Of a stretch of DNA of 64,000 nucleotides, positions 2,780 through 8,706 are shown one piece after another; within the stretch, counting starts at the first letter, position 1, and every line of letters begins with the position of its first letter. The stretch is from Thalassospira lucentensis. GTDB lineage: Bacteria; Pseudomonadota; Alphaproteobacteria; Rhodospirillales; Thalassospiraceae. Location of the stretch: contig NZ_LPVY01000005.1 of NCBI RefSeq assembly GCF_001613805.1, positions 310,001 through 374,000 on the forward strand. The letters run 5' to 3'. Under the pieces are notes generated by a model that was not told the DNA's origin, did not search any database, and saw only the letters and a program-made list of their open reading frames with translations. A program made the position numbers and the translations under genes.

Positions 2780-3721
2780 TTATTTCTTGAGCATTTTACG
2801 TTTCAGCGATGCCGTATGCGGGTTGATCAATTCGCGGATCCAGTTGGCGGTCGCGATTACAGCAGGGTCTTTTTCCCTAGCCGGGCGTATGAGTAGCCGG
2901 TACCACCAGTGCGATACGAAATCGGGAAAATTAAGCGGTACCAGTTCGCCGCGGTCAACAAAGTTGCGCGCAACGACATCAGTGCTGGCGACGATCCCCT
3001 GACCAGCGCGAGCGGCTTCGAGTGCCCAGATGTGATGGCTGAAGGTCCAGCAATCATCGAGCGAGAAGGCTGCCTGATCAAACCAGTTTGCAATCTGGGA
3101 AAATTGTTCGCTATCGCTGTCGATCAGCAGGATATCGCGTGGGCCGAGTGAACCGACATTGATATTGCAAGGATCAAGCCCGCGCTTCTCCAGCCATTCC
3201 GGCGCGGCAAAAGCATTGTAAATTTCGGGTGTGAGAAGTTCCGTGACCCAGCCATCCAGACCCGGCAAATCTTTTGGCGCGATCTGAAGCGCGATATCAA
3301 TTTCCAGCGGATCGAGATCATCATCAAATTCGATTTTGCGAAACTGGACAGGGATGTCGGAGGGCATGCGGGCCTGCAGACCGCCAAGCTCGTTCAGCAA
3401 AACCGTCAAGGCAGGGGTTGCCAGTGCACCGATGCGGATTGCCTTTCCCTTGTCCGGGCCAACTTCCCCGGTTATATCGGCAATGCCGTCAAGCGCTTCG
3501 GTGAGGCGCGGCAGTAGCTGTATTGCTGATTTTGTTAGACTTAAACCACGTCCCTTACGGACAAACAGGACAACGCCGAGGCATTCTTCGAGTTGGCGAA
3601 GCTGGTGACTGATCGCACTTTGCGTGACATGCAGTTCTTCGGCTGCCGCTTTAACACTTTGGTGGCGGGCGGTGGCTTCAAAGGCGACAAGCGCGCGTAA
3701 AGGGGGCAGTTTGCGGCGCAT
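2780..3721 (-). CDS. LysR-family transcriptional regulator (GcvA-like)
   Basis: DNA-binding regulator of 313 residues. The N-terminus carries the LysR winged helix-turn-helix, with the recognition segment TQSAISHQLRQLEE, and the opening LPPLRALVAFEATARH typical of the GcvA/AmpR branch. The rest is a periplasmic-binding-protein-like effector domain. It is divergent from the EamA exporter at 3968 across a 246-bp gap with inverted repeats, so it probably controls that exporter and itself. The effector cannot be read from sequence. Confidence 0.9.
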   Translation of the reverse strand: MRRKLPPLRALVAFEATARHQSVKAAAEELHVTQSAISHQLRQLEECLGVVLFVRKGRGLSLTKSAIQLLPRLTEALDGIADITGEVGPDKGKAIRIGALATPALTVLLNELGGLQARMPSDIPVQFRKIEFDDDLDPLEIDIALQIAPKDLPGLDGWVTELLTPEIYNAFAAPEWLEKRGLDPCNINVGSLGPRDILLIDSDSEQFSQIANWFDQAAFSLDDCWTFSHHIWALEAARAGQGIVASTDVVARNFVDRGELVPLNFPDFVSHWWYRLLIRPAREKDPAVIATANWIRELINPHTASLKRKMLKK

Positions 3722-3967: not shown

Positions 3968-4912
3968 ATGACCGGGACGCTTTTGCGCCTCAGCGGTAAT
4001 TTTCGCGGCGTTTTATGGATGACAGCGGCGATGGCATCGGGCGTTTTTGTCGATGTCTGTGCCAAGCTGGTATCCCATGATGTGCCGACCGCACAGATCC
4101 TAGCCATGCGTGCGGTAACCACAGTGGCTGTATTCTTGGTCATCCTGATGTTTATCGGTACCCGGTCAATCCGGACCAAGCGGCCCTATGCCCATCTGGC
4201 GCGTGGGGTGCTGTGGTATGGATCGCTGTTTTTTGTGTTCTTTGCACTTCGGCAGATGAGCATTGCCGAGGTTAATGCCTATCTGTTTATCGAGGCATTG
4301 CTGACCGTGATGCTGGCGGTTGTGATCCTGGGTGAAAAGCTGACAGCGCGCAAAGTGATTGCCACCGTGCTTGGCCTTGTCGGTGTCTGGGTGATGTGTG
4401 TGCCGAAGATGGACGGGTTTGGCGTGCCGCTGGGCGTTGCTGCCGCCCTGATCGGGGCATTCTGTTTTTCCGCCCAGACGCTTTTTGCCAAAGTGATGAC
4501 CCGGACAGAGACGAATTTTTCAATGCTGTTCTGGCCACAGATTGTTGCCATTGTTATCTGGGTGCCGGTCGCGGTTATCATGTGGCAACCAGCCGCCCGT
4601 GCTGACTGGCTTTATTCCGCCGGGGCAGGTTTTTTTGCCATGCTGACCAATTATATGGTCCTGCGTGCTGTCCGGGTGGCTGATGCCAGTGTCATTTCAC
4701 CGGCGGCTTATACGGCCTTGCCGTTTTCGGTGGCGATGGATCTGATCTTCTTTGACATGTTGCCCGTGCCCGTCATTTTTATCGGTGCAGGGATTGTTGT
4801 GCTGGCGGTTGCATTGCTTGACTATAAAGGCGGCGCAAAACCGGTACCTGTTGCTCCCGCCGGGCATGACAATGACGATGATGACAGCAAGGTCGCGACG
4901 GCAAAGGTTTAG
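3968..4912 (+). CDS. EamA/DMT-family inner-membrane transporter
   Basis: Hydrophobic 314-residue protein with about ten predicted membrane helices in two EamA repeats, the layout of drug/metabolite exporters. The C-terminal tail is charged and ends in a run of Asp residues. An AAAGG ribosome binding site lies close to the ATG. It is divergent from a LysR regulator, which suggests substrate-inducible export of a metabolite or toxic compound. Substrate unknown. Confidence 0.85.
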   Translation: MTGTLLRLSGNFRGVLWMTAAMASGVFVDVCAKLVSHDVPTAQILAMRAVTTVAVFLVILMFIGTRSIRTKRPYAHLARGVLWYGSLFFVFFALRQMSIAEVNAYLFIEALLTVMLAVVILGEKLTARKVIATVLGLVGVWVMCVPKMDGFGVPLGVAAALIGAFCFSAQTLFAKVMTRTETNFSMLFWPQIVAIVIWVPVAVIMWQPAARADWLYSAGAGFFAMLTNYMVLRAVRVADASVISPAAYTALPFSVAMDLIFFDMLPVPVIFIGAGIVVLAVALLDYKGGAKPVPVAPAGHDNDDDDSKVATAKV

Positions 4913-4953: not shown

Positions 4954-5319
4954 TCAGTTGATTCCTGAAGATGTATCGCCATGCAATTTGCGGGAATCGT
5001 CCGGTGTTTGCGCACGTTCATGCATTCCGTAGTCACGCACGACATGGGCGACACGCAGCCGATAATCATCGAAAATCCGGTTGCGACCTTTGCCTTGGGC
5101 AATGCGGTGTTCATCGACATTGCGCCAGGCCATGACGGCCTCTTCGTCGCGCCAGAAGGACAGAGATAAAACTTTGCCCGGCTCGGTAAGGCTTTCAAAC
5201 CGTTCAATCGAGATGAACCCGTCGATGGTTTCAAGGATCGGACGCAGGTCACCGGCGATCGAGAAATATTCATCACGGTGCTGTTGGTGGGGCAGTACTT
5301 CGAAAATGACGACAATCAT
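4954..5319 (-). CDS. Antibiotic biosynthesis monooxygenase-type (ABM) domain protein
   Basis: Small 121-residue single-domain protein of the dimeric alpha/beta-barrel superfamily. The N-terminal strand [10 protein letters not shown], the helix region and the later [14 protein letters not shown] stretch fit ABM proteins, some of which are cofactor-free oxygenases or quinone-modifying enzymes. It overlaps the preceding NIPSNAP gene by four bases (ATGA), so the two are translationally coupled. It is the last gene of an exporter operon. Catalysis is not proven, since many ABM proteins lack a known activity. Confidence 0.8.
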
Positions 5320-5645
5320 GGCTTGATCAGCTCCGCATGTGGGGTGGAAGCGATTTTGAAGAACTGGCGTTCTTCGCGCAGGATGAACTTTTCGCGTTGG
5401 GCGAACTGATAGTTTTCACGGCCCAACGGATCTTGCGACAGGCGTGCACGATAAGCTTCATATGATGCCAGATCGGGCAAATGGTAGACACCATATGCGG
5501 TCGAGATCGATCCTTCATACGGGGCGAAATAGCCGACCAGATCAGCCCCGCAACGCGGAATTGCCTCGCCCCAGTTCCGGGCATACTCGACAAAGGCGTT
5601 CTTTTTGTAAGGATCGATTTCATAGCGGATGAAACAGGTGATCAT
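5316..5645 (-). CDS. NIPSNAP-family protein
   Basis: Protein of 109 residues starting [15 protein letters not shown], a ferredoxin-like alpha/beta-barrel of the NIPSNAP family. The frame extends upstream, but family similarity begins at the ATG at 5645, so I use that start. It lies 28 bases after the EamA exporter gene and overlaps the ABM gene by four bases. Exporter, NIPSNAP and ABM genes therefore look like one operon. The biochemical role of bacterial NIPSNAP proteins is mostly unknown. Confidence 0.85.
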
Positions 5646-5673
5646 TTTCAATTTCCATGGATGGTTGATTGTT

Positions 5674-6597
5674 TCAGTATTTCGAAGAAGGTGATGTGGA
5701 TGCCTGCCAGAAGCTGGGCGGCAGATTGATGATGGCGACGCCGACGAGCGTGCAGAGGATACCGGCAAGAACCGGCGGGCTTATGGTTTCACCAAGCAAC
5801 AGGCTGCCAAGCACTACGCCGATCCCGGCACGCAGATAGCTTTGACTGGCAACGCCCATTGATCCGAGCGTGCGCAACAGTCGAAAATAGATCAGCAAGG
5901 CAATTGCGGTACAAAAGACCGACAGGGCAAGCGTCGCCAGAATGGCGGGTGTTGAAGGTGTTATGGCCCAGGGTTGATCCAGCACCAGACTTGCCGGGAC
6001 CAGAAAGATGCTGGCCCAGATCATGGTTGCTGCGGCGGTTACCGTCGCTGGCAGGGTATTGAAGCGTTTGCCATAGATCGCAGCCCCGGCATAAAGGATC
6101 GCCCCGGTAATAATGGCGAGTTGCCCGCCGAGATGTAGCCCAAGCCCGGTAAGCGCACCGGGGCCGACAATCAGCACCACACCTGCAATGCCAAGGCACG
6201 CACCGGCAAGACGAAACCGGTCAATCCGCTCATGCCGTGTCAGAAGGGCCGTGATCAGGAATACAAAAACCGGTGACGTCGAATTCAGCACACTGGCGAG
6301 GCCGCTTTCGACATGTTGCTGTCCCCAAGCTAGGACGGTCCATGCGCCGAGGCTGTTGAAAACCGACTGTATCAGCAACATGCCGATAACCTTGCCATCA
6401 CGTGGAAAATGTTCGCCACGCCAGGACATGATGGCAAAAAGAAACAGTGATGCGATGCCTACCCTGATTGCGATCAGGGTAACCGGCGGGATATCGGTCA
6501 GCGCGATTTTGATAAACAGATACGATGACCCCCAAAGCAGGGCGAGCAGAGCCAGCAAACCGATTTCAAGGGGAAGCGATATTTTGGACGGTGTCAT
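5674..6597 (-). CDS. EamA/DMT-family exporter, first gene of an ArsR-linked operon
   Basis: Protein of 307 residues with about ten predicted membrane helices and the EamA signature near the N-terminus ([14 protein letters not shown]). The ATG at 6597 gives a normal family length; the longer upstream frame is not supported. It is divergent from an ArsR-like regulator at 6673 with only 75 bases between, and is followed by NIPSNAP and ABM genes. This arrangement suggests regulated export plus modification of one small molecule. Substrate unknown. Confidence 0.87.
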
Positions 6598-6654
6598 TCG
6601 GATCTCCGGGCAGGGACAACACCGAACAGATAACCGATTGCTGGTAGTCAATGC

Positions 6655-6670
6655 TTCGATTAACATCGAA
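6655..6670. promoter_or_regulatory. Candidate ArsR-type operator dyad
   Basis: Perfect 6-4-6 inverted repeat, TTCGAT then four bases then ATCGAA, ending two bases before the ATG of the regulator at 6673. It lies in the 75-bp divergent gap to the EamA operon. A repressor bound here would block both directions, the usual ArsR logic. No binding data are available. Confidence 0.5.
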
Positions 6671-6672
6671 CT

Positions 6673-7380
6673 ATGAAAGAAGGACCCGATATTGCCCGCG
6701 TGGCTGCATTGCTTGGCGATCCGGCGCGCGCGAACATGCTGACCGCTCTGATGAGTGCCCGCGCCCTGACTGCTGCCGAACTTGCACAAGAGGCTGGTGT
6801 GACGCCCCAAACGGCAAGTTCGCATCTGGCAAAGCTTGAAGCCGGGCAGATCGTTACCCCGCGCAAACAGGGGCGGCATCGCTATTTCACGCTTTCAGGC
6901 CCGGATATTGTCGAGGTACTGGAAGTCCTGATGGGGATTGCCAGCCGAGTTGGCCATAACCGGGTGCGAACTGGCCCGAAGGACCCGGAATTGCGCAAGG
7001 CGCGAGTCTGTTACGATCATCTGGCTGGCGAAATGGGAGTCGCCCTTTTTGCCGCACTTGAAGAACGTGAACTGATCGCCATTGATCATAATGGTGTGAT
7101 GCTGACCGATGCAGGGGCGGATTTTGCCGCCGGGTTTGGCATTGATCTTATGGCGTTGCGCAATACCCGTCGGCCGCTATGCCGGGAATGCCTGGATTGG
7201 AGTGCGCGGCAATCACATTTGGCCGGGGCATTCGGGGCGGCATTATTGAACCGGTTCTATGAATTGGGTTGGGCGCAGCGCAGCCGGGACTCGCGTGTGG
7301 TCCGCTTCAGCCCGGAAGGCGAAAAGCAGTTCCACACGCTTTGTGACGGTCAGGAGCCTGCGGCAGGAAGAATCAGTTGA
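6673..7380 (+). CDS. ArsR-like winged-helix regulator
   Basis: Protein of 235 residues. Residues 1-75 are an ArsR/SmtB-type winged helix (VAALLGDPARANMLTALM, then AAELAQEAGVTPQTASSHL, then the wing around RQGRHRYF). The C-terminal 150 residues are longer than in classical ArsR and contain a CRECLDWSARQSHLAGAFGAAL segment with two Cys, as in a well-known extended ArsR subgroup. Divergent from the EamA-NIPSNAP-ABM operon, so the likely local repressor. Whether it senses metal or an organic ligand is open; no classical CxC metal motif is seen in the helix-turn-helix. Confidence 0.88.
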   Translation: MKEGPDIARVAALLGDPARANMLTALMSARALTAAELAQEAGVTPQTASSHLAKLEAGQIVTPRKQGRHRYFTLSGPDIVEVLEVLMGIASRVGHNRVRTGPKDPELRKARVCYDHLAGEMGVALFAALEERELIAIDHNGVMLTDAGADFAAGFGIDLMALRNTRRPLCRECLDWSARQSHLAGAFGAALLNRFYELGWAQRSRDSRVVRFSPEGEKQFHTLCDGQEPAAGRIS

Positions 7381-7400: not shown

Positions 7401-7868
7401 TCAAAGGCTTTGGGCGAGTTTTTCAAGCTGATCGGCACAAATGCCCCAACCTTCATGAAAGCCCATTTCCTCGTGCGCCTTTCGGTCTTCTTCGGACCAA
7501 TGGCGGGCGATTGCGGTGTAACGGGTTTTATCGCCTTCATCGGCAAAGGTGACGATTGCGGTCATAAATGGCTTTGCCGAAGGGACCCACGCACTTGTAT
7601 AGGCGTCGGTCAGGACGATCTTTTCATTTTCAACGATTTCAAGATAGATACCCGGATTGGGGAATTCATCGCCTTCGGGGTTTTTCATGACAATCAGGGT
7701 TGATCCACCGGGGCGAACATCCAAGTCGGCCCGGGCAATGGCCCAAGGTTTGGGGACAAACCACTGTTTGAGCAATTCGGCATCGGTCCAGCAGCGGAAA
7801 AGTTTTTCGCGCGGGGCATCAAGCAGTCGGGTCAGGCTCAGTTCATGTGTTTCCGGTTTAAAATTCAT
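7401..7868 (-). CDS. SRPBCC-family (AHSA1-like) protein
   Basis: Protein of 155 residues with the START/Bet v1-like fold found in AHSA1-domain proteins: the opening LTRLLDAPREKLFRCWTD, the WFVPKP segment, and the terminal HEEMGFHEGWGICADQLEKLA. Such proteins bind hydrophobic ligands, but few have a known function. It is convergent with the ArsR-like gene (20-bp gap) and lies downstream of the sirtuin gene on the same strand. Confidence 0.87.
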   Translation of the reverse strand: MNFKPETHELSLTRLLDAPREKLFRCWTDAELLKQWFVPKPWAIARADLDVRPGGSTLIVMKNPEGDEFPNPGIYLEIVENEKIVLTDAYTSAWVPSAKPFMTAIVTFADEGDKTRYTAIARHWSEEDRKAHEEMGFHEGWGICADQLEKLAQSL

Positions 7869-7903: not shown

Positions 7904-8647
7904 TCAGCCGATCAGTGACGAGACAAATGATGGAACGATTTCACTGGCAGCTCCATAGCTGCTGTACTCAAACAATGTTGCACCATTGCTTGGCTCCAGA
8001 TTGAGTTCTACGGTTTCAGCACCTGCTTCCTCGCGGACCATCTGCACAAAACCGGCTGCCGGATAAACATTGCCCGATGTTCCGATCGAGATGAACAGGC
8101 CGCAATCGGCCAAGGCAGTATAAATGCGTTCCATTTCCAGCGGCATTTCCCCGAACCAGACAACATGCGGGCGCAGTCCGCCCGACTTGGCGCAGGACGG
8201 GCAGGGGATGCCCTGACCGAGTGGCTCGGACCAGTTGGTCAAAAGATCACAATGATTGCAGCGGGTTTTCAGCAACTCGCCATGCATATGGATCAGGTTT
8301 TTTGACCCGGCCCGGTCATGCAGATCGTCAATATTCTGGGTTACCAGAAGCACATCACCCGGCCATTCTGCTTCGAGCCGGGCAAGAGCCAGATGTGCCG
8401 CATTGGGTCGAACGGCCGGATCAAGCAAGCCTGCGCGCCGGTCATTATAGAAATGATGCACCAGATCGGGATTATTGATGAACGCCTCGGGGGTTGCGAC
8501 CTCGGAAATGTCATACCGTGCCCATATGCCATCGGGATCGCGAAAGGTATGCAGGCCGCTTTCCTTTGATATCCCGGCTCCGGTCAGAATGACAATCGGG
8601 GCAGCATCAGCGCGCAGAATATCGATAATATCAGGGCGAAGTGGCAT
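7904..8647 (-). CDS. cobB: NAD-dependent protein deacylase (sirtuin, CobB-like)
   Basis: Sir2 enzyme of 247 residues that removes acyl groups from lysines using NAD. It shows the GAGISKESG NAD motif, the TQNIDDLH catalytic His segment, a four-Cys zinc site (CNHC and CPSC), and GTSGNVYPA. FYNDRR near residue 70 matches the Tyr-x-x-Arg pair that in CobB and SIRT5 favours succinyl and malonyl groups, so broad deacylase activity is predicted. The ATG at 8647 is chosen over a start six codons upstream because it matches the usual N-terminus. Confidence 0.93.
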   Translation of the reverse strand: MPLRPDIIDILRADAAPIVILTGAGISKESGLHTFRDPDGIWARYDISEVATPEAFINNPDLVHHFYNDRRAGLLDPAVRPNAAHLALARLEAEWPGDVLLVTQNIDDLHDRAGSKNLIHMHGELLKTRCNHCDLLTNWSEPLGQGIPCPSCAKSGGLRPHVVWFGEMPLEMERIYTALADCGLFISIGTSGNVYPAAGFVQMVREEAGAETVELNLEPSNGATLFEYSSYGAASEIVPSFVSSLIG

Positions 8648-8706
8648 GGTGGTTTCCATTTGCAATGTTGCAATTGGCTCAGCCTAGCGCCAGATCGCAC
8701 AAAATG

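Follow-up and report, generated by a model that had tools for sequence, protein, structure and literature searches.

An ArsR-type regulator of Thalassospira lucentensis and the three genes divergent from it, which encode an EamA-family exporter, a NIPSNAP-family protein and an ABM-family protein, probably form one local stress-response regulon in which a repressor controls the modification and export of a small molecule. We put the probability of this joint statement at roughly 0.7, and its parts differ in strength: the regulatory unit is very probably real, and its reading as a detoxification unit has about even odds. The four genes lie in a 64,000-nucleotide stretch of DNA (the window; Table 1). 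Comparison of genomes and structure models demonstrates a conserved gene order, conservation of the putative operator, an exporter carrying the same site in trans and the predicted fold classes of the proteins.

Genes were called throughout by open reading frame (ORF) and profile, and the Pfam matches of all four proteins exceed the gathering scores. The ABM protein matched PF03992 (E 3.5e-14, 53.2 bits versus a gathering score of 23.1) and the NIPSNAP protein PF07978 (E 3.2e-22, 79.1 bits versus 22.3), placing each in its family, while the exporter matched PF00892 over two stretches (E 4.5e-37, 127.8 bits), as expected of a two-repeat transporter. No NCBIfam equivalog reached its cut-off for the exporter, the best being YedA with 118.8 bits versus 270. 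The regulator matched HTH_20 (E 5.9e-11) and the ArsR-type HTH_5 (E 6.6e-6) in Pfam, and HTH_metalloreg in NCBIfam (58.1 bits, cut-off 55). ORF calls, Pfam and a motif scan thus bear out what the original prediction had read from the DNA: a three-gene minus-strand operon divergent from a plus-strand regulator, a four-base overlap of the NIPSNAP stop and the ABM start (5316-5319), and a perfect 6-4-6 dyad at the start of the regulator.

The idea of a system had been staked on conservation beyond this strain, and the neighbourhood is kept in most of 80 named loci and on plasmids of other classes. A full-length regulator orthologue was present in all 25 same-genus genomes examined (71-100% identity), and 64 of 289 genomes of the class had a match better than 1e-20. 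The named loci were taken as the top 80 (55-83% identical) among 589 confirmed regulator loci; they span Alphaproteobacteria, including Bradyrhizobium, Rhizobium, Paracoccus, Ruegeria, Phaeobacter, Kiloniella and Caulobacter. On the opposite strand and no more than 2.5 kb from the regulator, 73 of these 80 loci encode NIPSNAP, 61 ABM, 60 both and 9 EamA; four have none of the three. The paired NIPSNAP and ABM genes share the four-base overlap in 43 of the 60 loci and lie apart in 13, with an ambiguous call in 4. All 18 other Thalassospira loci contain the regulator, NIPSNAP and ABM. Plasmids of Burkholderia glumae, Vibrio coralliilyticus and Rhodovulum carry this core as well, and in Rhodovulum a LysE-type exporter gene follows the three genes. 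Because EamA occurs in only 9 of the 80 named loci and 6 of the 18 Thalassospira loci, the constant core, as judged from gene neighbourhood, is regulator-NIPSNAP-ABM and the EamA exporter is facultative. The four-part unit originally proposed therefore stands in part: the neighbourhood, together with an operator-like site at unlinked exporters, indicates that repressor, two barrel proteins and exporter belong together, but the exporter is not a constant member.

The association also held when approached from the NIPSNAP protein. A phylum-wide search matched 70 of 398 genomes, and from this list we took 60 NIPSNAP places, leaving out those already collected and the weakest matches. Where the NIPSNAP was at least 47% identical, the regulator was found at a distance of up to ~3 kb, inside the ~6-kb stretch taken, in 38 of 41 places, ABM in 33 and the core dyad within ~400 bp in 37; for NIPSNAPs 36-45% identical, regulator, ABM and nearby dyad were each found in 0 of 19. 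The link to the regulator thus appears specific to close NIPSNAPs. The three close places that have no regulator nearby (our loci L286, L292 and L306) all have the dyad, and three of the 41 have no exact dyad (L269, L282 and L298).

The core dyad is the sole mismatch-free match to its sequence in the window (10 matches with up to two mismatches, versus a shuffled mean of 4.8), and its conserved form, TTCGRYTANNRTCGAA, has one mismatch-free copy in the whole genome. When up to two mismatches are allowed, 77 of the 80 named loci have the 16-bp dyad in the 250 bp ahead of the regulator, whereas only 2 of 400 control pieces drawn from these loci contain it; the loci without it are L206, L234 and L238, and in 66 of the 80 it ends exactly 2 bp before the regulator ATG. 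These counts support the assignment of the dyad as a conserved operator-like site. A chance neighbourhood is ruled out by the presence of NIPSNAP in 73 of 80 loci, the enrichment of the dyad over the controls and the regulator at 38 of 41 close NIPSNAPs.

Anchored at the ATG, an alignment of 81 loci gave ATGCTTCG-RYTANNRT-CGAASYAT, which ends with the AT of the regulator's ATG. Farther 5', the bases TTG (-35 to -33) are kept in 73, 71 and 73 of the 81 loci, TA at -12/-11 in 71 and 75, and T at -7 in 71, with a TTG-TA spacing of 17 bp. We infer from these columns a sigma-70-type promoter with its -10 box inside the dyad and a transcript start at about the regulator ATG, giving a leaderless transcript. 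A consensus promoter scan listed no promoter in the intergenic region, and the predicted one rests on conservation. A ribosome-binding site is not conserved before the regulator; AGGAG-like bases are conserved before NIPSNAP. The distance from the regulator ATG to the first operon gene, 75 bp here, is 68-80 bp in 46 related loci in which NIPSNAP comes first.

The reduced core of the dyad, TTCG-N8-CGAA, reaches much further. It occurs within 300 bp in 45 of 46 loci of close regulators (at least 52.5% identity; controls 3/312) and stands before the operon or the regulator in Burkholderia, Vibrio, Rhodovulum, Cronobacter, Pantoea, Methylorubrum, Azospirillum, Sinorhizobium, Staphylococcus, Caballeronia, Nonomuraea and Streptomyces. 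It extends over Alpha-, Beta- and Gammaproteobacteria, Actinomycetota, Staphylococcus and the transposon Tn10. Haematobacter has a dyad at the regulator and none within 200 bp of ABM, and for a Paenibacillus relative no exact copy was seen within 300 bp. On a small plasmid of Staphylococcus epidermidis (L169:2826-4632), a relative of the regulator with the dyad is flanked by MFS pump, ThiF-like and aspartate carbamoyltransferase-like genes.

Sites were also found away from regulators. The exact 24-bp form of the operator occurs 22 times in the 289 class genomes, versus 0 for a reversed control, and 17 of these sites are at most about 100 bp from one end of a regulator gene. Of the remaining five, one precedes an EamA gene (genome G041), two precede NIPSNAP-ABM operons (G006, in the same locus, and G313, on a contig other than its regulator's) and one precedes a TauE/SafE permease (G276, likewise on a contig other than the regulator's); TauE proteins 51-53% identical to this permease adjoin the regulator in three other genomes. 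The fifth, a perfect site far from a regulator and near an acyl-CoA dehydrogenase gene (L384, G237:C1:3773607-3773630), is either a further target or chance.

Scanning the same 289 genomes for EamA yielded 30 matches in 26 genomes. Seven are beside a regulator, and nine further copies are 45-61% identical, including two at a distance of 3-4 kb from a regulator. TTCG-N8-CGAA stands 62-109 bp upstream of six of these nine and of none of the 14 remaining matches (34-44% identity); six of nine by chance has a probability of about 1e-12, given a control rate of 3/312 pieces. As six of nine EamA orthologues not adjacent to the regulator carry an operator-like site, the exporter is predicted to belong to the regulon, and of all our evidence these sites in trans argue most strongly for a common purpose of exporter and barrel proteins. 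A wider regulon in the organism's own genome was considered and rejected: one-mismatch sites are not above control and counts of a less strict 20-bp pattern across eight genomes are near the control, so we claim no further targets.

The regulator itself departs from the familiar members of its family. Its AlphaFold2 model (mean predicted local distance difference test score (pLDDT) 91.8, predicted template modelling score 0.65) has a winged helix whose best structural match is CadC (Z 15.5, root-mean-square deviation 1.6, 92 residues), which together with the HTH_5, HTH_20 and HTH_metalloreg matches places it in the ArsR/SmtB family. With CadC, CzrA, SmtB, NolR, BigR and SqrR it shares the winged helix and a divergent or upstream operator, and resistance units under an ArsR-type repressor are of a known kind; unlike them, it has an extra C-terminal domain of ~120 residues, with the secondary structure bbabba twice, and no N-terminal cysteines. 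Fold matches cover residues 1-95 only, and a sequence search of the PDB gave 37 matches, all within profile positions 4-92 and none to the C-terminal ~120 residues. The repeats contain the motifs R-x-C-Y-x-H-x-A-G and D-W-x-x-R-x-x-H-x-x-G. Across 90 regulator sequences Cys113, Tyr114, His116, Asp175, Trp176 and His182 are invariant, Cys173 is missing in one and Cys170 is replaced in 16. ArsR metal sensors hold CxC metal ligands in helix alpha3, and the classical metal or sulfane-sulfur sites lie within the winged helix. The only cysteines of the present regulator are 113, 170, 173 and 224; with none before residue 113 it has no alpha3 CxC site and none of the classical winged-helix sites, and its C-terminal half is therefore the probable sensor domain. 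A search of 50,697 phage records (E 1e-10) found no relative of the regulator.

For the NIPSNAP protein, the model (pLDDT 95.3) resembles solved NIPSNAP structures from Agrobacterium and Burkholderia, with TM scores of 0.72-0.79 by query length for the monomer model, consistent with the NIPSNAP fold; the Foldseek matches include 2ap6 and 1vqy. Its nearest solved relatives by fold are Atu4242 and Atu5224, and the fold list also includes LsrG and methylmuconolactone isomerase. The ABM protein is nearest by sequence to YqjZ of Bacillus subtilis (2go8) among solved structures. Sequence comparison of NIPSNAP with ABM gave no signal of common ancestry. Many ABM proteins are not oxygenases, as stated in a report on the ABM protein ArqI (PMC12274486).

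In the explanation we favour, the ArsR-type repressor would bind TTCG-N8-CGAA, a dyad that spans 24 bp when its arms are counted. A single bound dimer would shut both the regulator and the divergent operon, because the dyad covers the predicted -10 box of the leaderless regulator promoter and lies upstream of the operon. A small reactive or toxic molecule, imported or made in the cell, may then be sensed by the C-terminal twin-repeat domain, for which Cys113, His116, Cys170, Cys173 and His182 are candidate sensing residues. Release of the repressor would allow expression of NIPSNAP, of ABM and of any exporter that the regulon includes (EamA here; TauE, MFS or LysE elsewhere). The compound might then be modified or bound by the barrel proteins and expelled by the exporter. 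A quinone, the example given originally, is one substrate candidate among several.

The variable partners of the module comprise EamA, TauE, MFS, LysE, GST, OsmC, flavin reductase, cupin, phosphoenolpyruvate (PEP)-mutase-like, alpha/beta hydrolase, ACT and GltS proteins, and fit a role in detecting and clearing a small reactive compound more readily than a place in a fixed pathway. A possible precedent by analogy comes from Pseudomonas aeruginosa, in which the top glyoxal-induced operon described encodes ArqI and the glyoxalase GloA2 (PMC12274486). There too an ABM protein is strongly induced by a reactive aldehyde together with a detoxifying enzyme, but ArqI is an LsrG-like ABM and no NIPSNAP is involved. 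A NIPSNAP gene also appears among those induced in an antibiotic study of Acinetobacter (PMC4201530), which we do not count as evidence here. Searches of the open-access literature, with closed journals and preprints outside their scope, found no paper on a NIPSNAP-ABM-ArsR system, its operator, its trans regulon or a link to Tn10.

Several observations weigh against a single regulon for modification and export. EamA is absent from 71 of the 80 named loci and 12 of the 18 Thalassospira loci, NIPSNAP from 7 and ABM from 19 of the 80, and three of the nine non-adjacent EamA copies (G215, G310 and G243) have no site. Among more distant regulators, only 21 of 34 loci show TTCG-N8-CGAA at 300 bp or less, and copies of the conserved form at 0-1 mismatch in the host genome (9 forward and 2 reverse) are not in excess of the reversed control (10 and 8). 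PEP-mutase-like proteins are frequent downstream, at 11 of the 38 ORFs scanned (from 46 candidates), and together with the ACT-like and GltS neighbours in Tn10 they suit metabolism equally. The PEP-mutase/isocitrate-lyase-like gene follows the NIPSNAP-ABM pair in Bradyrhizobium (L191, L193, L198, L207 and others) and stands beside the regulator on a Streptomyces plasmid (L402), which hints at a shared substrate.

These neighbours bear on the reading of the locus as a catabolic or salvage unit, in which NIPSNAP and ABM would be isomerase- or cyclase-like barrel enzymes of a small pathway and the transporter would move a metabolite. LsrG and methylmuconolactone isomerase among the fold relatives, and PEP-mutase/isocitrate-lyase-like, alpha/beta hydrolase and ACT-like partners, speak for such a unit, but no constant pathway enzyme stands beside the module, the varying partners are mostly transporters, redox or conjugating enzymes and the core consists of two small proteins only; we consider it unlikely. 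Turnover of a diffusible signal, with ABM and NIPSNAP modifying or binding the signal and the exporter setting its level, would resemble the roles of LsrG (autoinducer-2) or ArqI (Pseudomonas quinolone signal). Both are ABM proteins tied to signalling in the account of PMC12274486, and LsrG is among the NIPSNAP fold matches; as the module has no recurring synthase or receptor gene next to it and the nearest solved relative of the ABM protein is YqjZ, not LsrG, this seems highly improbable. Slightly less probable still is a metal-responsive ArsR/SmtB switch, for although the N-terminal half is nearest to CadC, CzrA and SmtB by fold, the NCBIfam match is metalloregulator-like and the conserved C-terminal Cys and His could hold a metal, the first cysteine at 113 leaves no alpha3 CxC site and no metal transporter is among the partners seen. 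Anti-phage defence was rejected: PADLOC gave no match for EamA, NIPSNAP or ABM and matched the regulator only through residues 2-97, the HTH region.

Table 1 Genes and predicted regulatory features of the locus, in window coordinates
Feature	Position	Strand	Evidence	Remarks
ABM-family protein, 121 amino acids	4954-5319	-	translation, Pfam	YqjZ-like
NIPSNAP-family protein, 109 amino acids	5316-5645	-	Pfam, structure model, Foldseek	dimeric alpha/beta-barrel fold
EamA-family (DMT) exporter, 307 amino acids	5674-6597	-	translation, Pfam, NCBIfam	operon gene 1
Divergent intergenic region, 75 bp	6598-6672			
Predicted regulator promoter	6638-6666	+	column conservation, 81 loci	-35 TTGCTG 6638-6643, 17-bp spacer, -10 TAACAT 6661-6666 within dyad
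Extended operator-like site ATGCTTCG-ATTAACAT-CGAACTAT	6651-6674			right end takes in first two start-codon bases
Core dyad TTCGAT-TAAC-ATCGAA	6655-6670			ends 2 bp before regulator ATG
ArsR-type regulator, 235 amino acids	6673-7380	+	translation, Pfam, AlphaFold2	winged helix ~1-95; C-terminal domain ~105-225 of two bbabba repeats

Other genes surround the module. In the window, an AHSA1/SRPBCC-family gene (7401-7868) is convergent with the regulator, an arrangement otherwise seen only in G015 among the Thalassospira loci inspected; in other Thalassospira loci a Sir2-like gene, found at 7904-8665 in the window, directly follows the regulator. On the far side, a second EamA-family transporter of an unrelated subfamily (3968-4912) is convergent with the ABM gene, with a LysR regulator beyond it (2780-3721). 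Five of the 18 Thalassospira loci have an AztD-like secreted protein beside the module (L117 at 5643-6878, L118, L119, L122 and L125), with likeness to a zinc metallochaperone (372 bits, cut-off 400). In all of these except L119 its gene separates the regulator from NIPSNAP, and in this arrangement an additional operator-like site stands on the NIPSNAP side (G006). L119 has NIPSNAP-ABM in two copies, one ABM being shortened.

The cryptic extra genes of Tn10 look like a distant version of the window unit. The Tn10 regulator, encoded beside tetR(B), is 42% identical to that of the window over 219 columns, the ABM proteins are 48% identical, and the core dyad TTCG-N8-CGAA stands 53 bp before the Tn10 ABM gene. 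Unlike the window, Tn10 has an ACT-like protein in place of NIPSNAP (the Pfam ACT match is below cut-off), places ABM, ACT-like and regulator genes on one strand with the regulator last, and has gltS as the neighbouring transporter. The window thus shares the regulator family, ABM and dyad of this jem-type arrangement and has no ACT-like gene between ABM and regulator on one strand. Descriptions of Tn10 give the order tetR, jemC, jemB, jemA, with jemC next to tetR and jemA a gltS homologue (PMC7767384, PMC2258188). The PDB chain 9vp8, named YdjB, is identical in family to the Tn10 ACT-like protein, and the same ABM-ACT-regulator set is found in Cronobacter, Pantoea and Haematobacter. The Tn10 regulator gene is present in 852 of 72,556 plasmid records.

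More tentatively, at a little under even odds, the window locus may be one instance of a mobile stress regulon spread across several phyla, in which long ArsR-type repressors with a new twin-repeat sensor, a shared TTCG-N8-CGAA site, a NIPSNAP-ABM or ABM-ACT core and interchangeable exporters would clear a reactive metabolite, with the cryptic genes of Tn10, present on hundreds of resistance plasmids, as one carrier. Bacterial NIPSNAPs, YqjZ-type ABM proteins and the accessory genes that accompany tetracycline resistance in Tn10 would thereby gain a predicted operator, a predicted regulon and a predicted sensor domain.

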